DNA from: a bacterium
Lineage (GTDB): Bacteria; Myxococcota_A; UBA9160; UBA6930
Assembly: GCA_024228115.1 (NCBI GenBank)
Contig: JAAETT010000431.1
Location: forward strand, 1 to 39,285
DNA length: 39,285 nt
Direction of reading: 5' to 3'
Shown: positions 19,413-35,654 of the stretch, piece after piece
Layout of the letters: every line of letters starts with the position of its first letter
How positions within the stretch are numbered: the first letter of the stretch is position 1
Notes under the pieces: model-generated
What the model saw: the letters and a program-made list of their open reading frames with translations, nothing else
Database searches by the model: none
Told to the model about the DNA's origin: nothing
Position numbers and translations under genes: made by a program

Positions 19413-20020
19413 ACCCTTTGGCGCGCTGGAAGCCCTGGATGATCGCCGCACTCGCGCTCGCAGCCGTGGCGGGCCCTTCGGGCTGGGTCCTCACCGATCG
19501 CCTCGAGCAGGACAACGCGTTCTGCGTCTCCTGCCATCTGGACGCGGAAAGAACTCTGCATGCCGACAATCGGAGGGATTTCGATGCCCGTCCTCCGGAA
19601 GCCCTGGCCCCCGCCCATGCCGCTGCAGGCCATCCGGACGAACGTCCCTTTCGCTGCATCGATTGCCACGGCGGTACCGGCTTCCTTGGCCGAGGCCGGG
19701 TGAAATTGCACTCAGCGAAGGACGCGTTCTGGTACGTTGTGGGCCGGTTCGAAGAGCCGGAGGGGATGCACTGGCCCATCGAGGACGAGGATTGTGTGAG
19801 CTGTCACGACGCCTTCGATCCGCCCGTGCGAGAGGCGTGGCAAGCCCCCGCATTCCACGCACTGGCCGTGCACAACACGGCGTTCGACGTTTCTTGTGTC
19901 AGCTGCCACATCGCCCATGAGCGCGGCGGGCTGACGGGCTCCCACTTTCTGCACCCGGCGATCGTTCGTGCCGGGTGCGCGACATGTCATTCGGAATTCG
20001 AAAAGGAGTTGGAGCAATGA
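19334..20020 (+). CDS. NapC/NirT-like pentahaem cytochrome c
   Basis: 228 residues with one N-terminal membrane anchor (WMIAALALAAVAGPSGWVL) and five CxxCH haem motifs at residues 64, 108, 154, 188 and 215 (CVSCH, CIDCH, CVSCH, CVSCH, CATCH). This is the layout of NapC/NrfH/CymA-type quinol-cytochrome electron carriers facing the periplasm; many family members have four haems, so the fifth is notable. ATG 19334 would overlap the previous gene by 79 bases. TTG 19418 or ATG 19439, directly before the anchor, are plausible alternatives. It overlaps the next gene by ATGA, which implies coupled expression. Confidence 0.85.
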   Translation: MRRRTGPGLGAGGLGVARLSGGRGGLNPLARWKPWMIAALALAAVAGPSGWVLTDRLEQDNAFCVSCHLDAERTLHADNRRDFDARPPEALAPAHAAAGHPDERPFRCIDCHGGTGFLGRGRVKLHSAKDAFWYVVGRFEEPEGMHWPIEDEDCVSCHDAFDPPVREAWQAPAFHALAVHNTAFDVSCVSCHIAHERGGLTGSHFLHPAIVRAGCATCHSEFEKELEQ

Positions 20021-20829
20021 CCTTCCGTATCCGGGGCGCACGGATCGCGCTCGCCATCTCGATCCTTTGCTTCCCGCTCGCGGCGGATGCCTATCCGGGT
20101 GGGACGCCCAACTTCCAGACGGACGCCGCTCCGTTCTGCGCAGGCTGTCACTCCTCCCGGCAGGAGTCCGCGTTCGCAGGCGCACCTCCTGGAATGGCGG
20201 CCAAACAACTCGTCGAGAACAAACACCTCGCGGTGATTCGTGCCGGCAAAGGTGGCTACGGCGATCTCACTGCGGAACAGCGTGAGGAACTCGTGGGTCA
20301 CATCCAGGCCCTCGACGCGGCATCCACCGTCCAGCTCAATGTGGTTCCGAAGGCAAAGCCTGGCGAGGTGATCAGCGTGACGGTCGATGTGACAGGCGGC
20401 GCTGGTCCCGTGGTCGGTATCGCGTTGGTCGATCGAGCACATCGCGCGCTGGCCCGACCGATTGCCGGCTCCGGCTGGCATGTCGTCGGTGAGCCCACCG
20501 TGCTCGGCCAGGATTTCAAGGAGCAGACGGAGTGGTTGCATCTGCGCCCGGCCGACGCCATGCGCAACCTCTCCTTCGTCAACGTGAAGGGCATCCGTTC
20601 CGATGCAGCCGCGGGAGATTGGGCTCGCGCCCAGGTGGTGTGGAAGCTCCGGGCGCCCATGGCGCCGGGCACCTATCCGCTCGTCGCTTCCTATTGGTAT
20701 GGAAGCGAAAAAGCTTCACCCCTCGGTATCATCGAAGATCCCATCCTCGGCAAGATGCTTCGCGGTGGATTCGCGGGCGGCTCGGGTCGCATCTTGTTCA
20801 GCGAGGTGATTGGAGTCAAGGTCCAATGA
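20017..20829 (+). CDS. Exported monohaem protein of unknown function
   Basis: 270 residues starting at the ATGA overlap with the pentahaem cytochrome, with AAAGGAG about 10 bases upstream. The signal peptide ends near [11 protein letters not shown] haem motif CAGCH lies at residues 41-45, close to the mature N-terminus. The rest is beta-rich, with an Ig-like middle ([20 protein letters not shown]) and [17 protein letters not shown] do not recognise a named family beyond the cytochrome-like start. Its position between a quinol-type multihaem cytochrome and a quinohaemoprotein dehydrogenase suggests an electron shuttle or assembly partner (inference). Confidence 0.75.
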
Positions 20830-22925
20830 AGATTCGAAGCCTTCTCTCTCTGGCCTGTCTGTCTCTGGCGGCTTGCGCATTTCTCCCCGGTGGCTCTGGG
20901 CCGCCCAAGCGTGTAGGTGCCGGCCAGGTCGACGACGCACGACTCCTGGCGGCGGCGGACGAGAACGACGTCTGGATGACCTACGGTCGGACCCAGAGCG
21001 AGCAACGCTTCAGCCCTCTCACCCAGATCGATGAGAACAATGTCGGCGGGCTCGGGCTGCACTGGGCCTTCGAGCCCGGTACGAAGCGCGGACTGGAGGC
21101 GACACCCCTCCTGGTCGATGGCGTGTTCTACACGACCGGCACCTGGAGCGTGGTCTTCGCCATCGATGCTCGTACCGGCGATCTGAAGTGGCGCTACGAC
21201 CCGCGTGTGCCGCGGAAGACGGCGGGCATTGCCTGCTGTGACGTCGTGAACCGGGGCGTGGCCGTGTATCGCGGCCGGGTCTATGTGGGCACCCTGGACG
21301 GGAGACTGGTTTCGCTCGACGCAGAGACCGGAGAGCCGATCTTCGAGATCGTCACCACCGATCCGACGCGCCCGTACACGATCACGATGGCTCCGCGCGT
21401 CGTGAAGGGGAAGGTGATTCTCGGCAACGGCGGCGCCGAGTTCGGCGTACGCGGCTACGTGAGCGCCTACGATTGGGAGACCGGAGAACTGGTTTGGCGC
21501 TTCTACACCGTGCCCGGGGATCCGTCCCAACCCTTCGAGCATCCGGAACTCGAGGCGGCGGCGAAGACGTGGACGGGCGAGTGGTGGAAGGTCGGGGGCG
21601 GAGGCACGGTCTGGGACTCGATCGCCTACGACCCGGAGCTCGATCTGCTCTACGTCGGCACGGGTAACGGCTCGCCCTGGAGCCGTTACGTCCGAAGCCC
21701 CGGAGGTGGCGACAACCTCTACGTCAGCTCGATCCTGGCTTTGCGGCCGGATACCGGCCGGCTGGTCTGGCACTACCAGAACACGCCTGGCGACAACTGG
21801 GATTACACCTCCACCCAGCACATCATGCTCGCCGAGCTCGAAATCGACGGGCGCGAGCGGCGCGTGCTGATGCAGGCGCCCAAGAACGGTTTCTTCTATG
21901 TCCTCGACCGCGAGACCGGAGAGCTGATTTCCGCGGAGGCCTTCGCCAAGGTCACCTGGGCCAAGGGCATCGACAAGAAGACAGGTCGACCCATCGAGGT
22001 AGAAGGCCTCGACTACCGGAACAAGGTCGTCGAGGTCTACCCCTCACCCCACGGCGCGCACAACTGGCACCCGATGTCGTTCAATCCCCAGACGGGGCTC
22101 GTGTACATCCCGGCGAACGAGGTGCCGTATTTCTTCCAGCTCGACCCGGAGTACGAGTACAAGCCCGGCGCCTGGAACCTGGGCTACGACTTCACGGTCG
22201 CCGACTCGTTCCCGCGGGAGGTCGTGTCCGGCCATCTTCTGGCTTGGGATCCCGTGGCCCAGAAGGAAGTCTGGCGCGCCCAGTACGTCGGCCCATGGAA
22301 TGGCGGGACGCTCTCGACGGCGGGCAACCTGGTCTTCCAGGGCACAGCCCATGGCACCTTCGTCGCCTACCGGGCGAGCGATGGCAAGCAGCTCTGGGAG
22401 ACGCCCTCCGGAACCGGAATCGTCGCGGCACCCATGACCTACGAGCTGGATGGTGCGCAGTACGTGGCGGTGATGGCGGGTTGGGGTGGCGGCTTTGCGC
22501 TGGCGGCGGGCGATGCCGCAGCGGTGGCCGGGACCACCGACAACACGGGCCGACTCCTCGTCTACAAACTCGGAGGCAAAGCGAAGCTACCCGTGCACGA
22601 AGCCATCGAGCGGCAGCTGGCCGCCATTCCGGCCGATCTCGATGCGGATCAGGTGTTGCGCGGCAATCACCTCTTCCATCGCTGGTGCGGAACCTGCCAC
22701 GGCTCCGGTGCGGTGAGCGGCGGCGTGCTGCCCGATCTGCGCAAGGCGACGCCCGGCATCTACGACACCATCGAAGACATCGTGCTTCGCGGTGTGCGCA
22801 TGCCAAACGGCATGCCGAGTTTTGCCGAGTGGCTCGAGCCCGCCGACGTCGCGGACCTGCGCGCCTACCTTCTGAGCCGCCGGGCAGCGTTGCTTGCAGA
22901 GCGCGTCTCCGCCCCGCCCCCCTGA
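20826..22925 (+). CDS. Lipoprotein quinohaemoprotein alcohol dehydrogenase (PQQ + haem c)
   Basis: 699 residues, the size of type II/III quinohaemoprotein alcohol dehydrogenases. An eight-bladed PQQ propeller carries the vicinal cysteine pair C137-C138 ([11 protein letters not shown]), the catalytic-type aspartate D326 in GDNWDYTS, and tryptophan-docking repeats such as LDAETGEP and [12 protein letters not shown]-terminal haem domain has CGTCH at 621-625. The signal peptide ends in a lipobox (LSLAAC, Cys17), so it is probably membrane-tethered rather than soluble. It should oxidise a primary alcohol or aldehyde in the periplasm and pass electrons to the haem proteins encoded just upstream. 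Start ATG 20826 overlaps the previous stop (ATGA). No PQQ synthesis genes lie in the window. Confidence 0.9.
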
Positions 22926-22967
22926 AGACCCGAGGAGAGCATTCCGGCGCTCGCCGCGAGCGCAACT

Positions 22968-23399
22968 CTACGGCGCTTCCAGGATGACCCGATCGGGGTT
23001 CGTTCGAGCCCTTGCGGCTCGTCCACCGAAGACCCGGACTGCGTGGAAGACGTAGTCCGCCCGTGTCTGTGACATCCCGTCTTCGAGACAGAGGAGCCAA
23101 AGCAGGATGTCCGCGGGTTTGCGTTTCCTGCCTGGAAGAAGGCCCTCGCGCATCAACTGGTAGAGCGCGTCGTGGACGAGGGAGCCGCGCATGAAATTCT
23201 TGGTGTCGATGGCGGGGCCGCTCGGGCCGTCCCACGCGTAGCCCTTCTTGATGGTGAGCCTTCCGGTCTTCGACAAGGCGGTCCAACCCCCGGCCATGGC
23301 CGCCTTTTCAGGAAGACTCCAGCCGGTGTCGTGAACGTATTTCTCCATGAGCTGGTATTTGTAGTCCTGGAGCTTCCGGTACCTGATGGATGCGGCCAT
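22968..23399 (-). CDS. DUF1353-like protein
   Basis: 143 residues, the family's usual small size. The pattern GYAWDGPSGPAI...RGSLVHDALYQLMREGLL matches DUF1353, a domain often found in phage genes and scattered bacterial genomes, function unknown. The HDALY motif is intact. The downstream ILLWLLCLEDGMSQTRADYVFHAVRVFG continues the family pattern. It lies alone on the minus strand, tail to tail with the alcohol dehydrogenase and head to head with the DUF3604 gene. No other phage gene is visible nearby. Confidence 0.75.
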   Translation of the reverse strand: MAASIRYRKLQDYKYQLMEKYVHDTGWSLPEKAAMAGGWTALSKTGRLTIKKGYAWDGPSGPAIDTKNFMRGSLVHDALYQLMREGLLPGRKRKPADILLWLLCLEDGMSQTRADYVFHAVRVFGGRAARARTNPDRVILEAP

Positions 23400-23463
23400 T
23401 CGAGATCTCCTCTTCGACCGTTCCTAGCCTACAAGGCCCGGGGCAAGAGCTGAAAGAGAGATT

Positions 23464-23501
23464 CGGGATGGGAACACAGGCGGAGCTGTGCTCTCATCCC
23501 G
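23464..23501 (+). promoter_or_regulatory. Leader hairpin immediately upstream of the DUF3604 gene
   Basis: A long stem pairs CGGGATG (23464-23470) with CATCCCG (23495-23501), continues through one G-T pair, two Watson-Crick pairs and one A-C mismatch, and closes with CACAG/CTGTG around a 6-base loop. The Shine-Dalgarno AGGGAGG begins one base after the stem ends. It may stabilise the 5' end of the message or tune translation; no T-run follows. Confidence 0.5.
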
Positions 23502-23502
23502 C

Positions 23503-23509
23503 AGGGAGG
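23503..23509 (+). promoter_or_regulatory. Ribosome binding site of the DUF3604 gene
   Basis: AGGGAGG lies 5 bases before ATG 23515 and 8 bases before ATG 23518. This favours the tandem ATG start over the GTG at 23488, which lies inside the hairpin. Confidence 0.7.
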
Positions 23510-23514
23510 CACTC

Positions 23515-25338
23515 ATGATGAATCGAGTCCTGGTCGCAATCGCGGTCGTGCTTGGCAGCCTTGTCGCAGCGGGGGCCGAGAGCCCGAACTACTCGCCGTA
23601 CGCCGGCGAAAGCTACCCCCAGGATCTCCTCTGGGGCGATACCCACGTCCATAGCTCCTTCAGCATGGATGCCAGCACGATGGGCAATACCCGGCTTCAC
23701 CCGGGCGAGGCCTATCGTTTCGCCAGGGGCGAGACCGTCACGTCCAGCACGGGCCAATCGGTGCAGCTGGATCGGCCGCTGGATTTCCTGGTCGTCTCCG
23801 ATCACGCCGAGTACATGGGTGTCCTGCCGAAGCTTCGGGCCAAGGATCCGGTGGTGCTCGCGGATCCTGCCGGCAAACGCATCTACGATGCGCTGTCGGG
23901 TGGTGAGGATGTTGCCCGCAAGATCATGGAGGAGTTGATCGGTTCCCTGGCGAGCAATGAGCCGATCTTCGCCAACGAAGAGGTGAAGCGCGGTATCTGG
24001 AACGAGATTACGTCGCTGGCTGATCGGCACAATCAACCCGGTGTCTTCAGTGCCCTGATCGGTTACGAATGGACCTCGATGCCCAAGGGCGACAACCTGC
24101 ATCGGGTCGTGGTCTACCGGGACGGCGCCGAGACGGCCGGGCAGATGACGCCGGTCTCCGCGTTCGATGGGGAACGCCCCGAAGACCTCTGGGCCTTTCT
24201 TCAGAAATACGAAACCAAGACCGGAGGCCAGATTCTCGCGATTCCCCATAACGCGAATCTCAGCAATGGCCGGATGTTCGCCGTCGAGGATTCGAGTGGA
24301 CAGCCGATCGGGCGGGCCTACGCCTCGCGGCGCGCGCGCTGGGAGCCCCTGGTCGAGGTGACCCAGATCAAGGGGGATGGCGAGACCCATCCGCTGCTCT
24401 CGCCGGATGATGAGTTGGCGTCCTTCGAGACCTGGGACAAGGGCAACTTGAATGTCGCCGGTTCGATTCCGAAGACGCCGGAGATGCTCGAGTACGAGTA
24501 CGCCCGCTCCGCACTGAAGTCGGGCCTGAGGCTCGGGGTCGCGACGGGTGTGAATCCGTTCAAGTTCGGGATGATCGGAAGTACCGATAGCCACACTTCG
24601 TTGGCGACCGCGGCTGAGAACAACTTCTGGGGCAAGGCGGTCCTGGTCGAGCCGGGGCGGGAAAGGACGAACGAGACGTTCATTCCTTCTGCCGGTGGCA
24701 AAGAACTCGACATCATGGGTTGGCAGCAGGTGGCGTCGGGCTACGCGGGTGTCTGGGCCACGGAAAACACCCGGGAAGCGATCTTCGACGCGATGATGCG
24801 CAAGGAGGTCTACGCAACGAGCGGGCCCCGCATGCGCGTGCGCTTCTTTGGTGGCTGGACGTTCGAGGCCGAGGATGTACTGCGCCCGGAAAGTGTGCGA
24901 ACCGGCTATCAGAAGGGCGTGCCCATGGGAGGCGATCTGCCCGAGAGGGCCGGTGATGCGCCCGGTTTCCTGATCCTGGCGCTGAAGGATCCGAGCGGCG
25001 CGAACCTGGAGCGATCGCAGGTCGTGAAGGGCTGGATCGACAAGGGAGGTGAGCTGAAGGAGCGGGTCTATGACGTCCGCGTGGCGGCTGAGACCGGGTC
25101 CACGGTGGATGGGACCACGTACACGAATACGATCGGCGAGGCCCAGCTGGCTTCCTACTGGCAGGATCCGGATTTCGATCCAGCACAGCGCGCCTTCTAC
25201 TACGCCCGGGTGGTGCAGATCCCAACGCCCCGCTGGACGGCCTACGACGCACTACGCCTGGGCACCGAAGTGACAGTCGATGCACCCATGGCGGTCCAGG
25301 ACCGCGCCTACACCTCGCCGATCTGGTACACGCCCTAG
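23515..25338 (+). CDS. DUF3604 exported protein (PHP-like)
   Basis: 607 residues. The signal peptide ends near LVAAGA|ESPN. The mature start has the PHP-like metal motif WGDTHVHSSFSMDA, then FLVVSDHAEYMG, EWTSMPKGDNLHRVVVYRD, IPHNANLSNG and IGSTDSHTSLA. These blocks characterise DUF3604, often a full-length ~600-residue protein. The His/Asp pattern resembles PHP-type phosphoesterases, but the natural substrate is not known. The gene ends with 4 bases overlapping the convergent DUF1330 gene and has its own leader hairpin. Confidence 0.88.
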   Translation: MMNRVLVAIAVVLGSLVAAGAESPNYSPYAGESYPQDLLWGDTHVHSSFSMDASTMGNTRLHPGEAYRFARGETVTSSTGQSVQLDRPLDFLVVSDHAEYMGVLPKLRAKDPVVLADPAGKRIYDALSGGEDVARKIMEELIGSLASNEPIFANEEVKRGIWNEITSLADRHNQPGVFSALIGYEWTSMPKGDNLHRVVVYRDGAETAGQMTPVSAFDGERPEDLWAFLQKYETKTGGQILAIPHNANLSNGRMFAVEDSSGQPIGRAYASRRARWEPLVEVTQIKGDGETHPLLSPDDELASFETWDKGNLNVAGSIPKTPEMLEYEYARSALKSGLRLGVATGVNPFKFGMIGSTDSHTSLATAAENNFWGKAVLVEPGRERTNETFIPSAGGKELDIMGWQQVASGYAGVWATENTREAIFDAMMRKEVYATSGPRMRVRFFGGWTFEAEDVLRPESVRTGYQKGVPMGGDLPERAGDAPGFLILALKDPSGANLERSQVVKGWIDKGGELKERVYDVRVAAETGSTVDGTTYTNTIGEAQLASYWQDPDFDPAQRAFYYARVVQIPTPRWTAYDALRLGTEVTVDAPMAVQDRAYTSPIWYTP

Positions 25339-25713: not shown

Positions 25714-26901
25714 TCATCGCTTGATCGCATACTCCTCGAGCTTCTTCTCATCGATCTCGACGCCCAGGCCCGGCCGCTCGGGGAGCAGCAGGTCGCCGTC
25801 CTCCCACACGAAGGGCTCCTTCAGGAGCTCGTCGAAGAACAGCCCGGACTTGTGGATGCTCTCCTGGATCAGGAAGTTGGGAATCGCCGCATCGAGTTGA
25901 AGGGCAGCCGCCGTGATGATCGGCCCGCCCCAGACGTGGGGCGCCATCAGCACGTAGTGTGCCTCCGCCAGCGCGGCGATCTGTCGAGCTCCGGAGATTC
26001 CGCCGCAGCTCCCGAGATCCGGCTGCGCGAACGCGCAGGCACCCTGCGAGAAGAGGCGGTGGAAGTCGTGGATGAACGCCAGCCGCTCGCCCGTCGCGAC
26101 GGGAATCGTCGTGCTCGCAGCGATGCGGGCCATCTCCTCCGCGTTCTCCGGCGGACAGGGCTCCTCGAGCCAGAGGGGGTCGAATTGTTCGAGTCGTTTC
26201 GCCAGCCTTCGGGAGACGGAGGGCGTCATCTGGCCGTGGGTGCCGATCAGGATGTCCGCCTCGTTGCCCACGGCCTCCCGGATCGCACCGATCGTCGCTT
26301 CAGCGCTGTCGTAGTCTTGGAGCGAGAACTCGATCGGCGAGATCTCTCCCATGCCCGGCGGCGCGTAGGGCATCGGGTCCAGCTTCACGCCCGTGAATCC
26401 CTCGTCGACGAGCCGACGAGCCGCTTCGGCGACCGCCTTCGGGTTGCTTCTCCACTCCCCGATGGCAGCCGCGAGATCGCCCTCGCCCACGTTGGAATAG
26501 ATGTAGGTATAGGTTCGAATCCGTTCCCGATACCGCCCGCCGAGCAGATCACATACCGGCGCATCGAAATGCTTCCCGCAGATGTCCCACATCGCGACAT
26601 CGAAGGCGCTGATGATGCCCGAAGCGAAGTAGCCGGCGTTGTTGCTCGTGAGCCCTTCGTACATCCGCTTCGTCAAGGCGTCGCGATTGAGCGGGTCGTT
26701 GTCCCTCAGGTACCGCTCGAAGTTGTCTTCGACCAACTGGGCGAACGATCGATCGAGGCCGTACATGCTGAACAGGACCGCGCACTCCCCCCAGCCGACG
26801 AGGCCGGAATCGGTCTCGAGTCGGACGAAGTACCAGAAGATGCCCCCCAGGTTCGGCGGAGGGGTCTGGATGGCATAGGCCTTCGCGCTAACGAGCTTCA
26901 T
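25714..26901 (-). CDS. Enolase-superfamily protein, mandelate racemase / galactonate dehydratase-like
   Basis: 395 residues from ATG 26901 (AGGAGA ribosome site ~7 bases upstream). It has the capping domain (LVGWGECAVLFSMYGLD) and barrel of mandelate-racemase-type enzymes, which abstract the proton alpha to a carboxylate. E246, E272 and H322 and an upstream H222 keep the spacing I recall for D-galactonate dehydratase (24, 26 and 50 residues apart). However, the position of the first metal-binding Asp is Gly220 (LIGTHGQ). The second strand carries K173-L-D175. Sugar-acid dehydratase is the best guess; the altered ligand makes the reaction uncertain. It is transcribed with the Nramp-like and second enolase genes. 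Confidence 0.85.
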   Translation of the reverse strand: MKLVSAKAYAIQTPPPNLGGIFWYFVRLETDSGLVGWGECAVLFSMYGLDRSFAQLVEDNFERYLRDNDPLNRDALTKRMYEGLTSNNAGYFASGIISAFDVAMWDICGKHFDAPVCDLLGGRYRERIRTYTYIYSNVGEGDLAAAIGEWRSNPKAVAEAARRLVDEGFTGVKLDPMPYAPPGMGEISPIEFSLQDYDSAEATIGAIREAVGNEADILIGTHGQMTPSVSRRLAKRLEQFDPLWLEEPCPPENAEEMARIAASTTIPVATGERLAFIHDFHRLFSQGACAFAQPDLGSCGGISGARQIAALAEAHYVLMAPHVWGGPIITAAALQLDAAIPNFLIQESIHKSGLFFDELLKEPFVWEDGDLLLPERPGLGVEIDEKKLEEYAIKR

Positions 26902-27045: not shown

Positions 27046-28419
27046 CTACGAGATGTACCAGCCGAGGAACACGATCAGGAAGATCGTGACGCCGAGCATC
27101 GCTGCGAACCAGAGTGCGCCGCCCACGCCCGAGGGGCGGTCTTCTCCCAGGTAGGCGCGGCTGCGTTGGAGCAGGCAGAAGCCCAGGTAGGCCGCGGGCA
27201 GGAAGACCCCGCAGATGATGTTGGTGGGCACGGCGACCCAGACGGCGATGTCACTCCAGTAGACGCAGCCGAGGACGCCAGGCACGGGCAGCCAGGTCGC
27301 GAGCCGATGCTGCCAGCTGCCGACGCTGAGGCCCAGGAGTTCCACACCGACGAAGCCGCAAGTGAGCATCTGAAGTGTGATCGAGGAGAACGCCATGCCG
27401 AGCACGCCGAGGCCGAATACGAGGCGGCCTGCGACCGGGCCCACACCCTCGGCGAGTACCTGGGCCGCCTGGACCGGGGAGAGGCGCACGCCCTCGTAGG
27501 CCGGGTCGAGATGCAGGGTGTTGGCGGTGGCGATCACGACCAGGCTGACCGCGATCGTGTAGGGCACGAACATTCCGAGCAGCAGATCGAATTGGGAGAG
27601 CTCGCGGTGCTCGCGGCCCCAGCCGCGGGCCAGGAGTGTGTAAGGGTAGAGGAACACCATGTTCACGCCCACCGCAGCCGACACGCCCGACAGGATCAGG
27701 GTGACTCCGGCGATGCCGTTGCGTTCGTCGGGGATCTGGAAGCTGAAGAAGCCGCGGAAGAGTCCGTCCCAATCCGTGATGCCGGTCTGGAACACGACCC
27801 ATGCAAAACAGAAGACGATGCCCCAGACCATCGTCTGCAAGAGCCGCTCATAGGCACGGACCCAACGTTCCGAACGCCCGTACATGCTGGAGACGGAAAC
27901 GGCGGCGACGAGGATGAGGCCGCCGGTCAGCACGGGTGAGAGGCCCTTCATGCCGGCCAGATCGCCCAGATCGACGAGCACCGCGGAGGCCAGGGCGTAT
28001 TGAGGGAATTGCCAGATGATCGACGAGATCAGTGCACCGAGTGCCCAGGCCCAGGCGAAGAAGGGGCCGGCGTGCTCGTGCATGGCCGGCCAGGGCCGGC
28101 GTCCGGTCGAGAGCGTTTGCCAGGAAATCGCGGTCAACATCACCATGCCCAGGGCCATGGCGATGGGTGCGACCCAGAGCAGCTGGTAGCCGAAGATGGC
28201 ACCGGCAAAGAGTGCGGAGGAGACGGTTCCGCCGCCGAGGGTCATTGCGCTCTGCATGTAGCCCGGGCCGAGCATCCGCAGGTAGCCGCGTGCACGCGTC
28301 GCCAGGGGTTGTTCCGAGAGCTTTGCAAGGAACTCCCGCTCGCGATCCAGCACCACCGGATCCGGCGGGCTCGCCATGCGCAATCCTTGCCAACGTTCGT
28401 CGGGTGCCGGCTCGCTCAC
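27046..28419 (-). CDS. Nramp-fold transporter lacking the metal-binding motifs
   Basis: 457 residues with about 11 membrane segments. The first-helix region GPGYMQSA...FAGAIFGYQLLW aligns with the Nramp pattern GPG...DPGN...FGYSLLW. Where Nramp proteins have DPGN, this one has GGGT (residues 62-65), and where helix 6 has M-P-H it has Y-P-Y (258-260). Proton-coupled manganese/iron transport is therefore unlikely. It starts at GTG 28419, within the stop of the enolase-superfamily gene upstream (GTGA), so it is translationally coupled to a metabolic enzyme. An organic acid or other non-metal substrate is inferred from context. Confidence 0.8.
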   Translation of the reverse strand: MSEPAPDERWQGLRMASPPDPVVLDREREFLAKLSEQPLATRARGYLRMLGPGYMQSAMTLGGGTVSSALFAGAIFGYQLLWVAPIAMALGMVMLTAISWQTLSTGRRPWPAMHEHAGPFFAWAWALGALISSIIWQFPQYALASAVLVDLGDLAGMKGLSPVLTGGLILVAAVSVSSMYGRSERWVRAYERLLQTMVWGIVFCFAWVVFQTGITDWDGLFRGFFSFQIPDERNGIAGVTLILSGVSAAVGVNMVFLYPYTLLARGWGREHRELSQFDLLLGMFVPYTIAVSLVVIATANTLHLDPAYEGVRLSPVQAAQVLAEGVGPVAGRLVFGLGVLGMAFSSITLQMLTCGFVGVELLGLSVGSWQHRLATWLPVPGVLGCVYWSDIAVWVAVPTNIICGVFLPAAYLGFCLLQRSRAYLGEDRPSGVGGALWFAAMLGVTIFLIVFLGWYIS

Positions 28420-29813
28420 TTCGGGAGTTCCCTTTCCAGGCGGTCGAGCGGAAGTCGCTCGCTCCAGGAGATCGGCGAGTGGCAGCCGTAGCCCGCTGCG
28501 TGTTGGCAATCAAGAGAGAGCTGGCCTTCCCGGATCTTCAACACGATGCGTCCAGCCTGACGCTCATAGAGATCGGGCTGGGCCGCCAGGGCGGCTTCGG
28601 CCTCTTCCGGCGGGACGACACTGAGCCCCGGAAAGAAATGGTGACCGTTGCGCTCGGTATGCGGCAAGCCCAGGGCGGCAAGGGTCGTCAGATCCTGCTG
28701 GAGGGAGAGGACGGGAAGATTCGTCAGGTCCTCGGAGGTCTGGAACGCGCCGCCCCCGCGTGTGAGGCAGAGTGCGCGATTCGCCAGGGCGCGGAACACG
28801 CCCTTGCAGTTCTTCACCGAGACACCCTGGTAGCCGATTGCCAGGGCACGGGAGAAGGCGTCGATGGAATTGTCGGCCTCATCGATCAGGAGCGGGGCGG
28901 TCTGGGAGACTGCACGTACGTCGTCTGCACTGGCCGGGTCGAAGGTCTGTTCCCTCGGTAGGGGTTGCTCGATGTAGGCGAGCCCGTCCAGGATGGCGCG
29001 GCCATCCGCGTTCGTCGTCAACAGCTCGAGCAGGCGCGCCAACTCGCCGAGGTTGGCGTACTGCTCGTTGGCGTCGAGCGTGAAGATCGGGCCCGGCCTG
29101 GCGTGTTCGGCGACGACCCGGGAGATCGCCGTCAACCGGCGCAGATCCGTCGCCGGATCCCCGCCGAGCTTCAGCTTGAACGCGCGCAGATCGAAGCGTT
29201 GGATGTCTTCCTCGAGCGCAACCGGATGACCGTCGTCGCCGCGGAGTTCGGCAGTCACGTCGCCACGGGTCAGCGGATCCAGGCCGCCGACCGTGTGTCG
29301 CAGCAAGACATGGGACGGTGGCTTGGGAGCGAGAAGGGCAGGGCTGCCAATCCCGGCCGTCTCGGGCAGCAGCGCTCCCGGGTCGAATGCGAACAAGTCC
29401 GCTTCGAGGGCCGCGCGAAAGGAAATACCGGCGCATCGACACACGGCATCGAGCATCGCCCGTTCGACCAACGCGAGGCCGAAACCGTCGACGAGGCTCG
29501 TGGCGTTCGCGTGGGCGTCGCGCCAGACCTGGAAGGCCGTTCCCTCGCGACCTTCGAAAGCCTGGCCCGCACGCAAAGCGCTCGCGAACAGCTCACTCAT
29601 GTCCTGCCCGGCGGTTTTCCGGGCGTCCTTCTCGAACCACTTGGGTACCGCCAGGTCGGCGCCATGCCCGAGGGTCAGCTTGTCGCCGTCTGCGATTTCC
29701 ACCCGGGCCGTGATCAGGGGCGCTTCCGTGACCGTGACCTTTCCGAAGCGGAAGGGAATCCGGGCGCGCAGGAGTTGCCCGGCGAAGGCCACCGATTGGA
29801 TTCGGATCTCCAT
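28416..29813 (-). CDS. Enolase-superfamily enzyme, muconate-lactonizing subgroup-like, enlarged
   Basis: 465 residues, about 95 longer than usual for the superfamily. The catalytic set is complete and in order: K213-x-K215 (FKLKLGG), metal ligands D247 (TLDANEQY), E282 (YIEQPL) and D311 (LIDEAD), and K334 (SVKNCKG). A lysine on each side of the site is the muconate cycloisomerase / o-succinylbenzoate synthase / dipeptide epimerase arrangement. The extra length lies partly before the barrel (about 130-205) and partly in a C-terminal tail with cysteines. It diverges from tetR across 39 bases containing the probable operator and is coupled to the transporter by GTGA. Substrate unknown. Confidence 0.82.
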   Translation of the reverse strand: MEIRIQSVAFAGQLLRARIPFRFGKVTVTEAPLITARVEIADGDKLTLGHGADLAVPKWFEKDARKTAGQDMSELFASALRAGQAFEGREGTAFQVWRDAHANATSLVDGFGLALVERAMLDAVCRCAGISFRAALEADLFAFDPGALLPETAGIGSPALLAPKPPSHVLLRHTVGGLDPLTRGDVTAELRGDDGHPVALEEDIQRFDLRAFKLKLGGDPATDLRRLTAISRVVAEHARPGPIFTLDANEQYANLGELARLLELLTTNADGRAILDGLAYIEQPLPREQTFDPASADDVRAVSQTAPLLIDEADNSIDAFSRALAIGYQGVSVKNCKGVFRALANRALCLTRGGGAFQTSEDLTNLPVLSLQQDLTTLAALGLPHTERNGHHFFPGLSVVPPEEAEAALAAQPDLYERQAGRIVLKIREGQLSLDCQHAAGYGCHSPISWSERLPLDRLERELPK

Positions 29814-29852: not shown

Positions 29853-30512
29853 ATGCCGGCTCAGACCCTCCGAAAGCTGCCCTACAGGCCGCGAGACGCG
29901 GAGCGCACCCGGGCTGGCATCCTTGCCGCCGCCACCGCGGCGTTCGCAGCCCAGGGCCTCGGCGGTGCTCGCGTCGACGAGATCGCCCGAGGAGCCGGCG
30001 TGAACAAGGCCCTCCTGTATCACTACTTCGGGAGCAAGCAGGCCCTGTTCCTCGCCGTCCTCGAGGAGGCCTATGCCGACATCCGGGGCGCCGAGGAGGC
30101 CCTGGAGCTCGAGGCCCACAGCCCGCCCGAGGCGATGGAGCGGCTGGTCGACTTCACCTGGGGTTACTTCCTGGAGCATCCGGAGTTCATCACATTGTTG
30201 AACAGCGAGAACCTTCACCGGGCCCGTCACCTGAAGCGCTCGAAGCAGGTTCGCGCCCTTCATCACCCTCTGGTCGATCGGATCGGCGAGATCCTCGAAC
30301 GAGGCGTCGCCCGCGGCGACTTCCGTGCGGACGTCGACCCGGTCCAGCTCTACATCTCCATTGCTGCTCTCGGCTACTTCTATCTCTCCAACGCATACAC
30401 GTTGGGCACGGTCTTCGAGCGGGACCTCCTCGCCGAGAGCGAGAAGGAGGCGCGGCGTACCCATGTGCAGGACGTCGTGCGTGGATACCTGCGCCCGGCA
30501 GTCGTCTCGTGA
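29853..30512 (+). CDS. TetR/AcrR-family transcriptional regulator
   Basis: 219 residues. The N-terminal helix-turn-helix is typical: VDEIARGAGVNKALLYHYFGSKQALFLAVL, written here as two parts of one block (about residues 43-72). The C-terminal ligand/dimer domain is all-helical (MERLVDFTWGYFLEHPEFI, IGEILERGVARGDFRADVDP). No clear ribosome site precedes ATG 29853, so the message may be near-leaderless. It sits next to an AT-rich palindrome between divergent genes, and its stop overlaps the next start (GTGA). It is probably an autoregulated local repressor released by a pathway metabolite. Confidence 0.9.
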   Translation: MPAQTLRKLPYRPRDAERTRAGILAAATAAFAAQGLGGARVDEIARGAGVNKALLYHYFGSKQALFLAVLEEAYADIRGAEEALELEAHSPPEAMERLVDFTWGYFLEHPEFITLLNSENLHRARHLKRSKQVRALHHPLVDRIGEILERGVARGDFRADVDPVQLYISIAALGYFYLSNAYTLGTVFERDLLAESEKEARRTHVQDVVRGYLRPAVVS

Positions 30513-31456
30513 GCGAAATCCATCCGAGCCAGCGGGTGCGGCCCGGTCGAAAGATCCGCGGCATGTCGGCCGTGTTGTTGCCCATCACAGAGGCGGGGGA
30601 GATCGACTGGCAGGGCTATCGCGCGTTGCTCTCCCAGACGGCCGAGGCGGGGCTCACGCCTGCAGTGAACATGGACACCGGCTATGTGCAATTGCTCGAC
30701 GATGCAACCCGCCACCAGGTGCTCGATACGGCGAAGTCCATTCACGGCGAGGGCTTCGTGGCGGGGGCCCATGTTCGCGACCAGGCCGGAGATGGTTGGA
30801 ACCCGGACGCGACTTCCGCGGCCATGGACGCGATCGAATCTCGCGGCGGAATACCGGTCGTCTTTCCCTCCAATGGCCTGACGTCGCTAGACGGGCCGGA
30901 ATGGGCCGGCGCCCATGCAGGGTTGGCACGCACGAGTGATCGTTTCATCGGTTTCGAACTCGGCTCGATGTTCGTGCCCTACGGACGCATCTACGATCTC
31001 GAGGCCTACGCCGAGCTGATGGCCATTCCGCAGTGCATCGGCGCCAAACACTCGTCGCTCTCACGCCAGCTCGAATGGGATCGGCTGACGCTGCGCGATG
31101 TCCGGCGGCCGGACTTCCTCGTATTGACAGGAAACGACCTGGCGATCGACATGGTCATGTACGGCAGCGACTACCTGCTCGGGCTCTCGGCCTTCTCGCC
31201 CGAGCACTTCGCATTGCGAGACCGCTTCTGGGAAGCCCGGGATCCCGCATTCTACGAGCTGAACGACCTGCTCCAATACCTGGGCTGCTTCGCGTTTCGC
31301 GACCCCGTGCCAGCCTACAAACACGACGCTGCCATGTTTCTCGAACTTCGTGGTCGCATCGCAAGCAGCCGTACCCATTCGGGTTCCCCGGAGCGTCCCG
31401 AAAGCGACCGCGCGGCGCTGGCGGATATCGCCGGGCGGCTGGAGGCCTACCTGTGA
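30509..31456 (+). CDS. DapA-like (dihydrodipicolinate synthase family) lyase/aldolase
   Basis: 315 residues, the normal size for the N-acetylneuraminate lyase / DHDPS TIM-barrel family, which uses a Schiff-base lysine. The candidate is K180 in IGAKHSSLSR. The N-terminus GMSAVLLPITEAGEIDWQGY has the family's entry strand. The usual GTTGE loop reads NMDTGY and the usual tyrosine motif reads VVFPSNGL, so it is an outlier. Possible roles are 2-keto-3-deoxy-acid aldolase or dehydratase; DapA activity is unlikely. It starts at GTG 30509 in the tetR stop and ends in the start of the OYE-like gene (GTGA). Confidence 0.78.
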   Translation: MSEIHPSQRVRPGRKIRGMSAVLLPITEAGEIDWQGYRALLSQTAEAGLTPAVNMDTGYVQLLDDATRHQVLDTAKSIHGEGFVAGAHVRDQAGDGWNPDATSAAMDAIESRGGIPVVFPSNGLTSLDGPEWAGAHAGLARTSDRFIGFELGSMFVPYGRIYDLEAYAELMAIPQCIGAKHSSLSRQLEWDRLTLRDVRRPDFLVLTGNDLAIDMVMYGSDYLLGLSAFSPEHFALRDRFWEARDPAFYELNDLLQYLGCFAFRDPVPAYKHDAAMFLELRGRIASSRTHSGSPERPESDRAALADIAGRLEAYL

Positions 31457-32877
31457 CCGAGCCCCGCAAGCTCTCGCGCCTTCGAAGTCTGGAAAAGCTC
31501 GAAGCCTATCTGGAGGAACTCGGGATCGAGCTTCCTCTCGACGAGGAGCTCGTACCCGACGGGCCTCTGGCGCAGCCGTTGGAGGTCGCAGGCCGAACGC
31601 TAGGCAACCGCTTTGCCATCCTGCCGATGGAAGGCTGGGACGCGACCGCCGACGGAAGGCCGACCGACTTGGTGCGACGCCGTTGGCAGCGTTTCGGAAC
31701 GAGCGGTGCAAAGCTCATCTGGGGCGGTGAGGCGTACGCCATTCGGCCCGAGGGGCGTGCCAATCCGAATCAACTGTCCCGCAATCCGAACAGCGGGCAG
31801 GACCTGGTCGAGCTGCATGACCTGCTGGTGGCTTCTCACGAGGAACACGCAGCCGGATCGGAAGATCTTCTGACGGGCCTCCAGCTCACGCACTCGGGCC
31901 GCTTCGCCCGGCCCCAAGGCCTGCCAGCCCCGCGCGTCGCCTTCCGCCACCCGGTGCTCGATGAGCGAGTCGGCATCCGTTCGGATGCGGCCTTGCTTTC
32001 CGACACGGAGCTCGACGACTTGATCGGCGACTACGCCGCGGTCGCGAAGTTGGCGCAGGAGGCCGGCTTCGGTTTCGTCGATGTGAAGGCTTGCCACGGT
32101 TATCTGGGCCACGAGTTGCTCGCCGCCCGAGAACGGCCGGGTGCCTACGGCGGCGGGTTGGAGGGACGTTCCCGCTTCTTGTTGCGAGCGATCGAGGCGG
32201 TGAAGCGCGAGGCCCCTGCGCTGGCGATCGGCGTGCGGCTCTCGATCTTCGATCTCCATCCGTTTCGCGCAGGTGAGGATGGCGTTGGCCGTCCGGAACC
32301 CTCCGCCCAACGACCTTTCGGCGGAAGTCAGGATGGCCTGGGGCTGGACCTGGACGAGACCGATGCGTTGTTGACCGCGCTTGGCGATGCAGGCGTGACG
32401 CTCCTGTGTACGACCGCCGGTAGCCCCTACTACAACCCACACATCCAACGCCCCGCCTTCTATCCGCCCTCCGATGGATACCGCCCGCCCGAGGATCCCC
32501 TGGTGGGTGTCGCACGCCAGTTGCGAGCCACCGCGGAGCTCAAGAGCCGCCATGCGGAGCTCTGCTTCGTGGGCTCCGGCTACACGTATCTCCAGGAGTG
32601 GCTTCCCCATGTGGCCCAGGCGGTGGTGGGGCGAGGCGGCGCCGACGTGATCGGTCTCGGCCGGATGGTGCTCTCGTATCCCGAGTTGCCGAGAGACGTC
32701 CTGTCGGGCCAGCCTTTGAAGCGGCCACTCGTATGTCGGACATTCAGTGATTGCACGACCGCCCCCCGCGGTGGCCTGATCTCAGGCTGCTACCCGATCG
32801 ATCCGTTCTACAAGCGTCGCGCCGAGGCCCATGAGTTGGCCGACATGAAACGCCAGGCGAAAGGTTCCGCGTCATGA
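31453..32877 (+). CDS. NADH:flavin oxidoreductase, Old Yellow Enzyme family
   Basis: 474 residues, longer than classical OYEs (~360) because of an N-terminal helical lead and insertions. FMN-barrel motifs are visible: NRFAILPMEGWDA, LQLTHSGRFARPQG, VDVKACHGYLGHELLAARER and GADVIGLGRMVLSYPEL. In the active-site strand the first His of HxxHGYL is K212, while H215 and Y217 remain. The C-terminal part has three cysteines in VCRTFSDCTTAPRGGLISGC (one stretch). It probably reduces an activated C=C bond using FMN. GTG 31453 overlaps the DapA-like stop, and its own stop overlaps the dehydrogenase start (ATGA). Confidence 0.83.
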   Translation: MTEPRKLSRLRSLEKLEAYLEELGIELPLDEELVPDGPLAQPLEVAGRTLGNRFAILPMEGWDATADGRPTDLVRRRWQRFGTSGAKLIWGGEAYAIRPEGRANPNQLSRNPNSGQDLVELHDLLVASHEEHAAGSEDLLTGLQLTHSGRFARPQGLPAPRVAFRHPVLDERVGIRSDAALLSDTELDDLIGDYAAVAKLAQEAGFGFVDVKACHGYLGHELLAARERPGAYGGGLEGRSRFLLRAIEAVKREAPALAIGVRLSIFDLHPFRAGEDGVGRPEPSAQRPFGGSQDGLGLDLDETDALLTALGDAGVTLLCTTAGSPYYNPHIQRPAFYPPSDGYRPPEDPLVGVARQLRATAELKSRHAELCFVGSGYTYLQEWLPHVAQAVVGRGGADVIGLGRMVLSYPELPRDVLSGQPLKRPLVCRTFSDCTTAPRGGLISGCYPIDPFYKRRAEAHELADMKRQAKGSAS

Positions 32878-35654
32878 TGCGACGGTTGCTCTGGGTCCTG
32901 CTCGGCCTTGGCATCGTTCTCGTGCTTGCCTGGCAATGGTGGCAAGGGCCGGATCCGCGCGAGATCCTGGCCCGCATCGAGGTTCCACCGTCACCGGTCC
33001 TCTCGCCCGAGCAGGCGCTTGAAACGTTCAGGACGGCGCCCGGCTTCCGCGTGGAACTCGTCGCCGCGGAGCCGCTCGTCGTCGATCCCGTGGCGATGGA
33101 CTGGGACGACGAGGGTCGGCTCTACGCGATCGAGATGCGCGGCTTCATGCCGGACATCGACGGCAGAGGGGAAGATCGTCCGGTTGGCCGTGTGGTCTTG
33201 CTGGAAGACACCGACGGCGACGGGCGGATGGATCGCAGCGATGTCTTCCTGGATGGACTCGTGATGCCGCGAGCGATCGCGGTGCTTCCGGAGGGTGTGC
33301 TGGTCGGTGAGCCGCCGAACCTGTGGCTGTGCAGGGATCAGGACGGCGACCGCGCGTGTGACGAGAAGATCCGCCTTACGGAGTACGCCATCGTCGGCAA
33401 TCCCGAGCATCAGGAGAACGGACTGCTCGCGGGCCTGGATGGATGGATCTACAACGCGAAATCGGATCGTCGGTTTCAGTTGAATGGGGAGACGATCGAG
33501 ATTCAAGGCACGGTCTTTCGCGGCCAGTGGGGAATCGCCCAGGACGACAAGGGCCGTCTCTACTACAACCACAATTCCGGGTTTCTCTACGGTGATTCGA
33601 TCTCGGGGGACTATGCCATGCGGCAGCCCGCGTCGGCCGCGGCCGTCCCGAAGCCCGGAGTGAACATCGATCTCGCAAGAGGCGAACAGGTCTTCGGCAT
33701 CCGAGTGGCTCCAGGCCTGAACCGCGCCTACTTGCGCGGCACCCTGCGGAGCGACGGTCGTCAGGCTGGGCCGACGGCAGTCAGCGGGCTGGCGATCCAG
33801 CGCGGAGATCAATACGGCCCGGAATTCGTCGGTGATGCCTTCGTTCCGGAACCCGGCAGCTCCGCCGTCGCGCATTTCGCCGTCGAGCGGGACGGCACGA
33901 CACTACGCGCGGAGCATCGGCTCTATCCTGACGAGCAATGGGGCCAACGGGAGTTCCTGGCCTCGACGGACGAACGCTTCCGGCCGGTCGACGCAGATTT
34001 TGGCCCCGACGGCTCGATCTGGTTGATCGACATGTACCGAGGGGTGATCCAGCACGCGGACTATGTCTCCGATCATCTTCGCGCCTACGTGGAAAAGCAC
34101 GATCTCGAGCCGCCGGGTGCGACGGGACGCATCTGGCGGGTCGTGCGCGAAGATCGGCCGATCACGTTCCAGCCGCCTCCCTTGGCTGCCCTGGAAGACC
34201 AACTCGCCGGCCTCGACCACCCGAACGGCTGGGTCCGCGATCGCGCGGGACGACGCCTGATCTTCGAGGCTGCGCCTGCTGCGGTTCAGGCGCTCCGCGC
34301 ATTCGAGAGCTTCGGTCCGATGGGTCGACAGCATGCGCTGCGGACCCTCGACCAGATGAACGGCCTGGATCTGGCGACCTGGCGACGCGCCCTGTCCGAT
34401 GCGGATGCGTCGCTCCGTGAGCTGGCCATTCGCGTCGGTGAGCCGCTTCTCGATGATCCTGGGGCGGTCGAAACCCTCTTGCCCTTCGTCTCGGATCCCG
34501 ACGCGACGATCAGGATCCAGGCGCTCCACTCGTTAGGCGCGGCTTCGCCCGCGCAGCGCCCGCTGGACGTTCTTCTCCGGGCCGGGCGAGAGGGCGACGC
34601 GCTCGAGGAGCAGGCCGTGATCTCGAGCCTGGCTGGCGTCGAGTTCGTGGCCTTGCGGCAGGAAATCGATTCCGATCGTGGAGCTGGTGAATGGCTGGCC
34701 AAGCTCGCGGGGGCAGCCCATCTCGCCGCTCAGGCTGCGGATGCGCCGCCGAACGCCGCGGCCGAGCTTCTCGATCTGATCGATTCGAGGCATGGAGACG
34801 ACTTGGCCGTGTCATTGCTCGAGGGGATCGAGACGGCGCAGCGAAGCCCGGGCGCGAGCAGAGTGGCGTTGTCGGCGCCCCATCCCTTGTTCGATGCGAA
34901 TCCGGACAGACCCGAGCGCGCCCAGTCCGTTCTGCGTCGTGTTCGTCGCCACTTCACGTGGCCCGGGGATCCCCGGCCCGGGGGTGCGCGGCCGCTCACA
35001 GCCGAGGAGCAGGAACGCAAAGAGCGGGGTGCCGAACTCTATGCGATGAGCTGCGGGACGTGCCATGGCGCCGAGGGGCAAGGTACCGTGGGGCTCGCGC
35101 CGAGCCTGGTCGGCTCGCCATGGGTACGCGATTCCGATGCGTGGTTGGTGCGTATTGCTCTCGGTGGTTTGACCGGGCCGATCCGCATCCGCGACGAAGA
35201 GTGGAATCTCACCATGCCCGGGCATCGGTACGATCCGCGCTTCGACGACGACGGCCTGGCAGGCGTCCTCACGCACTTGCGCCGCTCCTGGGGGCACGCG
35301 GAGGAGCCCGTCGCGCCGGCCTCGGTGGCGAAGATTCGCGCGGCTACGGACGCGCGTACCCTCCCATGGACGGCAGCGGAGCTCATCGAGTTGGAGGTCG
35401 ATCACAGGCTCGACCGCTATGCCGGCCTCTACAGCGTCCCGATCGTGGCATTCGAGATCCTGATCCAGCGAGACGCCTCGACCCTCTCGATCGGAATGCG
35501 CGAAGGAGGGAGGGCTCCGCTCGCCGAGGTCGACCTGGGCTTGTTCATCGGCGAGGGCATCACCGTCGAGTTCGAGGAAGACGAGGAAGGCGGGGTCAGC
35601 TCAGCCAGCGTCACGCGCGAGGGGACGACCTTCCCGATCTCGCGGGTCGAGTAG
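32874..35654 (+). CDS. Membrane-anchored PVC-type dehydrogenase with HEAT-like region and cytochrome c
   Basis: 926 residues. An N-terminal membrane anchor (WVLLGLGIVLVLAWQWW) is followed by a beta-propeller of the kind called 'membrane-bound dehydrogenase' in planctomycetes: GFRVELVAAEPLVVDPVAMD, WDDEGRLYAIEM, LLEDTDGDGRMDRSDVF and HQENGLLAGLDGWIYNA. A helical HEAT-like segment follows (about 440-660). The haem motif is CGTCH at 727-731, and a final ~90-residue acidic domain comes after it. It should act in the periplasm as an oxidoreductase donating electrons to the respiratory chain; the substrate is unknown. It is the last gene of the TetR-led run. Confidence 0.82.
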   Translation: MMRRLLWVLLGLGIVLVLAWQWWQGPDPREILARIEVPPSPVLSPEQALETFRTAPGFRVELVAAEPLVVDPVAMDWDDEGRLYAIEMRGFMPDIDGRGEDRPVGRVVLLEDTDGDGRMDRSDVFLDGLVMPRAIAVLPEGVLVGEPPNLWLCRDQDGDRACDEKIRLTEYAIVGNPEHQENGLLAGLDGWIYNAKSDRRFQLNGETIEIQGTVFRGQWGIAQDDKGRLYYNHNSGFLYGDSISGDYAMRQPASAAAVPKPGVNIDLARGEQVFGIRVAPGLNRAYLRGTLRSDGRQAGPTAVSGLAIQRGDQYGPEFVGDAFVPEPGSSAVAHFAVERDGTTLRAEHRLYPDEQWGQREFLASTDERFRPVDADFGPDGSIWLIDMYRGVIQHADYVSDHLRAYVEKHDLEPPGATGRIWRVVREDRPITFQPPPLAALEDQLAGLDHPNGWVRDRAGRRLIFEAAPAAVQALRAFESFGPMGRQHALRTLDQMNGLDLATWRRALSDADASLRELAIRVGEPLLDDPGAVETLLPFVSDPDATIRIQALHSLGAASPAQRPLDVLLRAGREGDALEEQAVISSLAGVEFVALRQEIDSDRGAGEWLAKLAGAAHLAAQAADAPPNAAAELLDLIDSRHGDDLAVSLLEGIETAQRSPGASRVALSAPHPLFDANPDRPERAQSVLRRVRRHFTWPGDPRPGGARPLTAEEQERKERGAELYAMSCGTCHGAEGQGTVGLAPSLVGSPWVRDSDAWLVRIALGGLTGPIRIRDEEWNLTMPGHRYDPRFDDDGLAGVLTHLRRSWGHAEEPVAPASVAKIRAATDARTLPWTAAELIELEVDHRLDRYAGLYSVPIVAFEILIQRDASTLSIGMREGGRAPLAEVDLGLFIGEGITVEFEEDEEGGVSSASVTREGTTFPISRVE

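Follow-up and report, generated by a model that had tools for sequence, protein, structure and literature searches.

An Nramp-fold transporter encoded with an enolase-superfamily enzyme as a probable importer of organic acids

The window analysed here, a stretch of 39,285 nucleotides from a bacterial contig, encodes a protein that is placed by sequence profiles and a structural model in the Nramp superfamily, with the LeuT-type Nramp fold. We consider that this protein probably imports a small organic compound across the inner membrane, and not a metal; a carbohydrate derivative bearing a carboxylate is the most likely cargo. The evidence favours an organic substrate because the acidic residues of the metal site are missing and the gene shows conserved coupling to catabolic-type enzymes; import of an organic solute would explain at once why the metal site is lost, why a new site is conserved and why the gene is coupled to catabolic-type genes in several phyla. 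The original prediction, that a branch of the fold had been repurposed for an organic substrate, is thus supported by the loss of the acids and by the gene coupling as far as the substrate is concerned, but not in the direction of change that the word repurposed implies.

Many bacterial proteins carry the name 'Nramp family divalent metal transporter' purely from homology. If the clade described here moves an organic acid, a group spanning several phyla is misnamed, as are several other branches met in this survey, and the result would bear on the origin of Nramp metal selectivity within a superfamily whose members carry amino acids and organic solutes. The defined cluster of four genes (enolase, OYE, carrier and DUF993/DHDPS) offers a direct route to seeking the substrate.

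Fold and central site of the transporter

The transporter matches the Pfam Nramp family (PF01566) with 90 bits (E=2.1e-25; cut-off 29.8 bits) and is the sole protein with this match found in the host genome, which is 97% complete. The NCBIfam metal-transporter models match it only below their cut-offs (35.6 bits versus 50 for the equivalog Nramp_1). An AlphaFold2 model, computed with 49 sequences, gave a pLDDT of 86.9 and a pTM of 0.88, and the best Foldseek matches of this model were solved Nramps and NRMT with TM values of 0.65-0.74. The top matches all belong to the Nramp family and comprise DraNramp, EleNRMT, human DMT1/NRAMP1 and a model of YcsG; APC-type carriers, among them those of amino acids, follow at lower ranks. 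The alignment anchors that had been named from the sequence are indeed present, GPG at residues 51-53 and FGYQLLW at 76-82, and so is the described overlap with an upstream enolase-superfamily gene: on the minus strand, the GTG start codon (28419-28417) shares the bases GTGA with the TGA stop codon of EnoA (...CCG AAG TGA, 28418-28416). In the closest relative, which is 93% identical, the EnoA and transporter frames abut likewise.

Table 1. Features of the window, grouped as genes and as segments of the transporter
Feature	Position	Strand	Remarks
Nramp-fold transporter gene	27046..28419	-	457 aa, GTG start, intact ORF
EnoA, divergent MLE-type enolase-superfamily enzyme, conserved partner	28416..29813	-	Pfam MR_MLE_C 1.8e-8
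EnoB, second enolase-superfamily enzyme, galactonate/mannonate-dehydratase-like	25714..26901	-	MR_MLE_C 2.7e-67; PDB 4e4u 7.8e-97
Divergent TetR-family regulator	29853..30512	+	TetR_C_29 3e-46
DHDPS/NAL-like (class I aldolase-type) protein, related to DUF993	30509..31456	+	Profile matches
OYE, NADH:flavin oxidoreductase	31453..32877	+	Oxidored_FMN 8.2e-23
PVC-type haem (CxxCH) protein, beta-propeller-like DUF7133 and cytochrome c domains	32874..35654	+	
TM1 unwound segment G62-G63-G64-T65, at DPGN position	28225..28236	-	Ungapped alignments and helix break
TM6 unwound segment G251-V252-N253, at MPH position	27661..27669	-	Alignments and helix break
Y258-P259-Y260, helix 6b	27640..27648	-	Clade-conserved; misplaced at MPH in the original prediction

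The replacement of DPGN by GGGT held in ungapped HMM and profile-profile alignments, which place it at residues 62-65, and the model predicts a break in helix 1 at 61-62, between residues 60 and 63. The assignment of Y-P-Y to the helix-6 MPH motif was a register error. HMM and profile-profile alignments, alignment with the solved structure of B. fragilis Nramp and the helix break in the model all rule it out, as the MPH position is occupied by G251-V252-N253 and YPY (258-260) aligns with a later H-S-x of canonical Nramps. Helix 6a is predicted to end at residue 249 and helix 6b to start at 252, with the unwound point at 250-251, so that the breaks of both helices fall at the expected unwound points.

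Site conservation was assessed in an alignment of 49 sequences, whose homologues share 47-92% identity with the window protein. Over these homologues, down to 47% identity, 41 columns are invariant, which argues that the conserved site is not due to chance; they include Q56, A58, T60, L61, G62, G64, W136, N253 and P259. The DPGN position reads GGGT, GSGT, GAGT or the corresponding Ser forms, with Gly first in 49/49 and Thr or Ser at position 65 in every sequence. In TM6, where the window protein has A-A-V-G-V-N, Gly occupies the Met position (251) in 48/49 and Asn the His position (253) in 49/49, and the YPY element is nearly as constant (Y258 48/49, P259 49/49, Y260 47/49). The published signatures are DxxN-A/CxxM for canonical Nramps, DxxN-AxxT for NRAT and DxxG-TxxA/T for NRMT (PMC8806188); the clade signature, GxxT/S-AxxG, agrees with neither the canonical nor the NRMT form.

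Four acids are invariant in nine canonical sequences, and the clade keeps two structural ones, the TM5 Glu (E191) and the TM7 Asp (D278), but lacks the TM1 Asp and the TM3 Glu. The column of the latter, which belongs to the proton path and is invariant in the nine canonical sequences, holds Y141 in the window protein and Tyr (48/49) or Phe (1/49) across the clade. In TM1 and TM6 of the model, not one column is acidic in at least half of the 49 sequences. Judged from alignments and model, the site fits the Nramp fold and would not fit a metal site built from known ligands.

Partner enzymes and gene neighbourhood

EnoA retains the residues expected of an active enzyme of its superfamily. The KxK motif (K213xK215), the metal ligands D247, E282 and D311 and the second Lys K334 are invariant in 31 sequences, and the AlphaFold2 model (pTM 0.93) matches muconate lactonising enzymes (MLE), dipeptide epimerases and talarate dehydratase in Foldseek. 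Enzymes of the enolase superfamily require Mg2+ and have as substrates carbon acids with an adjacent carboxylate; on these residues and this model, a carbon acid is also the expected substrate of EnoA. Distant paralogues of EnoA (34-40% identity) had no conserved neighbours and gave no functional hint. The DHDPS-like protein had no Pfam hit, and its family profile gave weak matches to 4dnh (1.7e-5, the best solved structure) and to DHDPS. Since 4dnh matches a Planctomycete DUF993 protein at 1.4e-50 and is itself of DUF993 type, the window protein and the Planctomycete DUF993, as judged by profile comparison, probably represent one enzyme type shared by the two lineages. K180, a candidate for the Schiff-base Lys of the DHDPS/NAL superfamily, is invariant in the aligned sequences of ten orthologues. 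In the library searched, no paper on DUF993 was found. The PVC-type haem protein matches DUF7133 (1.8e-98) and Piru_Ver_Nterm (6.7e-59).

A genome scan yielded 140 relatives; 80 loci were kept, and the neighbour counts, which are sensitive to contig ends and similarity thresholds, rest on those: OYE lies near the Nramp clade gene in 40/80 loci, EnoA in 35/80 and the PVC haem protein in 25/80, and DUF993 was found in 27. The coupling to the upstream enzyme gene seen in the window is therefore conserved, although the survey revealed stronger partners in OYE and the DHDPS/DUF993 aldolase-like gene. In the window, EnoA-Nramp is divergent from TetR - DHDPS-like - OYE - PVC haem protein, and the TetR regulator is conserved in Myxococcota-type loci; in Planctomycetota the order is EnoA - OYE - Nramp - DUF993 on a single strand, with OYE mostly less than 100 bp upstream of Nramp. 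Among 343 Planctomycetota genomes, EnoA orthologues (at least 42% identity) occur in 26 and the short Nramp clade in 21, and all 15 genomes that carry both have them on one contig (hypergeometric 6e-15 for the co-occurrence, a value that ignores phylogeny and uses thresholds picked after the list was seen). Within 61 relatives of the host, six genomes have an EnoA orthologue and all six have the Nramp gene. A literature search for the combination of Nramp, enolase and OYE returned nothing relevant, and no published report of a link between the clade and EnoA, OYE and DUF993 was found.

The coupling is not universal. Counting loci with enough flanking sequence, both EnoA and OYE are absent nearby in 6/16 Myxococcota-type, 6/30 Planctomycetota/other and 15/15 Acidobacteriota loci. 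Clade members without EnoA adjoin a GHMP kinase, fused to a nucleotidyltransferase in some, and in Acidobacteriota such members adjoin the PVC haem protein and an ABC importer of the sugar type. At two loci (L162:1376-3028 and L249:5967-7628) the Nramp clade gene has as its direct neighbour a fusion of a GHMP sugar kinase with a sugar-1-phosphate nucleotidyltransferase, which by its motif may resemble glucuronokinase. Conversely, three EnoA-OYE-DUF993 clusters (L236, L238 and L241) have no Nramp gene and no other carrier was seen alongside. The idea that a swapped carrier serves these loci found no support: the products of ten scanned ORFs there included a transketolase, an aldehyde dehydrogenase, several peptidases and a protein of AAA/DUF4143 type, but no transporter; the transketolase and aldehyde dehydrogenase genes lie close by in L238 and L241.

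The second enolase-superfamily gene that had been noted after the transporter is real but is not conserved beside the orthologues. EnoB had no match in the loci of relatives and is thus strain-local, which rules it out as a component of the system. Upstream of the cluster, the window also encodes proteins with CxxCH haem motifs, a PQQ alcohol dehydrogenase and a DUF3604 protein (19334-25338, + strand), and the PQQ alcohol dehydrogenase gene is kept near Nramp in two close relatives. Further away, a single ORF of 2961 aa (138-9023, + strand), with long repeated glycine-rich blocks following Ig-like-looking stretches, probably encodes a very large surface or secreted protein.

Substrate and origin of the clade

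In the mechanism that we propose, the glycine-rich break in helix 1 (L-G-x-G-T/S) would offer backbone amides and a hydroxyl to the carboxylate of the substrate, and the remaining wall of the pocket would be formed by N253, Y258/Y260 and W136/Q140. Glycine-rich helix-1 breaks likewise serve as carboxylate sites in amino-acid carriers of this superfamily. Once the substrate has entered the cell, EnoA would remove a proton from the carbon alpha to the carboxylate, a redox step may fall to OYE, and the aldolase-like protein may cleave or hydrate the product. At loci with the haem dehydrogenase, the acid may be made by that enzyme in the periplasm. The cargo is most likely sugar-acid-like or cyclitol-acid-like.

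Several observations count against an importer of organic acids. The genome context points to a pathway and not to a substrate, EnoA and OYE are absent near some members, and Nramp-less EnoA-OYE-DUF993 clusters exist. Enolases also need Mg2+, so that a metal role in the operon is not absurd, and we regard it as quite unlikely that the protein is still a divalent-cation carrier (Mg2+/Mn2+) which holds a hydrated ion on backbone carbonyls, T65 and N253 and supplies the Mg-dependent enolase. Such a carrier would agree with the Nramp fold, with the binding of hydrated Mg2+ by NRMTs in a widened site (PMC8806188) and with the report of YcsG, a motif-less Nramp-related protein according to a preprint (PMC12873925), as a Mn2+ importer (PMC10448178), a report that equally weakens the case for an organic acid. 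However, NRMTs retain the helix-1 Asp, mutation of which strongly compromises transport (PMC8806188), and the clade has Gly there in 49/49; the helix-3 Glu is Tyr or Phe, and helices 1 and 6 are without a conserved acid. The retention of this Asp in NRMTs, together with the presence of MgtE and CorA in the host genome, makes a hydrated metal the weaker explanation, and a metal carrier would give no special reason for OYE, aldolase-like and sugar-kinase neighbours.

These sugar-kinase neighbours, the GHMP kinase/nucleotidyltransferase genes, and the sugar-type ABC importers beside members without EnoA could also speak for a cargo that is organic and not a carboxylate, namely a neutral sugar, polyol or cyclitol used directly by the cluster or by a sugar-1-kinase. 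We consider this unlikely, because EnoA, which together with OYE is the most frequent partner, has a complete set of catalytic residues for carboxylate-adjacent chemistry. It is very improbable that the protein does not import the pathway substrate at all, but exports a product, acts as an exchanger or controls the operon as a membrane sensor: the clusters without Nramp would suit such a role, but the central motif is highly conserved, working LeuT-type broken helices are predicted and Myxococcota-type loci have a separate TetR regulator.

The clade spans at least three phyla, with hosts among Deltaproteobacteria/Myxococcales MAGs (Myxococcota-like), Acidobacteriota (Thermoanaerobaculia, Holophagales) and Planctomycetota; most genomes behind the survey are MAGs, and the Planctomycete Pla86 provides a complete genome carrying a member. 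A maximum-likelihood tree of 76 sequences, unrooted, calculated under one model and with YcsG and PxpT left out, gives the clade 100% support and a long stem; canonical and NRMT-like sequences lie outside it and cluster with each other. A longer sister subfamily in Planctomycetota (517-610 aa; L243, L244, L245, L251-L255) has the motifs LG[GA]GS and AVGINMTFL.PYS; its genes follow the order EnoA-OYE-Nramp in L243 and L245, lie beside EnoA-OYE in L244 and are without EnoA at the other loci.

The loss of the motifs is not novel in itself. In a 2026 preprint (PMC12873925), Nramp-related proteins are described with diverse residues where canonical Nramps have DPGN and MPH, groups other than NRMT-like and MntG are called uncharacterised, and a rooted tree shows the motif-less proteins as paraphyletic and basal to canonical Nramps. 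Nramp-related proteins without metal motifs are thus an already recognised, largely uncharacterised group. The word repurposed assumes a direction that, given this paraphyly, may run backwards, with the metal site as the derived state. In a bolder reading, which we hold to be slightly less likely than not, the multi-phylum branch imports a carboxylated carbohydrate derivative through a glycine-rich carboxylate site into a novel EnoA/OYE/DHDPS-DUF993 pathway; taken with PxpT and the branches linked to pectin and CoA-transferase genes, organic-acid import would then be widespread and perhaps ancestral in the Nramp family, the metal site having come later.

Other Nramp-related genes were seen in the course of the survey. 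Several loci from the phylum of the host (within L060-L083) represent a large group with the TM1 sequence VGVSHLVQSTRAG, also without DPGN. On a plasmid of Croceibacterium (NZ_CP156083.1, L168, 3748-9666), a distinct Nramp-related gene with GTGD in TM1 and LLYPY...RGW in TM6 has the gene of a four-carbon acid sugar kinase on one side and that of a pectate lyase on the other, apparently in one operon, with PdxA, a DHDPS-family gene and pectinases as neighbours; its product is a strong candidate for an acid-sugar carrier. The Nramp-related genes of four plasmid loci (L178-L181) are all annotated as divalent metal transporters, and adjoin a CoA-transferase and an FAD-linked oxidase (Mycobacterium, Rhodococcus), a CoA-transferase and a thiolase (Mesobacillus) or an amidase (Rhodococcus). 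The contexts of all these plasmid genes speak for organic cargoes in the window protein's wider family as well.

Comparison with known systems

Measured against canonical Nramp/MntH/SLC11 transporters (DraNramp, B. fragilis Nramp), the window protein has a query-normalised TM of 0.61-0.70 and shares the GPG and FGYxLLW anchors, the TM5 Glu and the TM7 Asp, but is without DPGN, MPH and the TM3 Glu. Identity to Nramp and NRMT structures is 14-20% in structural alignments. EleNRMT matches with a TM of 0.69 by query and 0.78 by target, and NRMTs likewise have no soft Met ligand; in contrast to the clade, which has GxxT/S-AxxG and is separate in the tree, they have DxxG-TxxA/T with a helix-1 Asp. 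The G-motif and orphan-outgroup clades of Nramp-related proteins are likewise without the substrate motifs, and have been described as diverse and, save for NRMT-like proteins and MntG, uncharacterised (PMC12873925; Cellier, PMC10606218).

The closest precedents for an organic cargo are PxpT of Corynebacterium glutamicum and YcsG of Bacillus subtilis, NRAMP-family proteins that are needed for 5-oxoproline use, deletion of PxpT leading to a loss of growth on 5-oxoproline (PMC13274462); YcsG is also known as MntG. Like the window protein, they belong to the NRAMP family by homology and are encoded with a catabolic enzyme, in their case in 5-oxoprolinase operons, and the YcsG model 9a52 matches the fold of the window protein with a TM of 0.66-0.74. 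The partners differ: those of PxpT and YcsG are pxpABC, and no pxp-type gene was found among the annotated neighbours in the window or the annotated conserved neighbour families, whereas the window protein is accompanied by an enolase, OYE and an aldolase.
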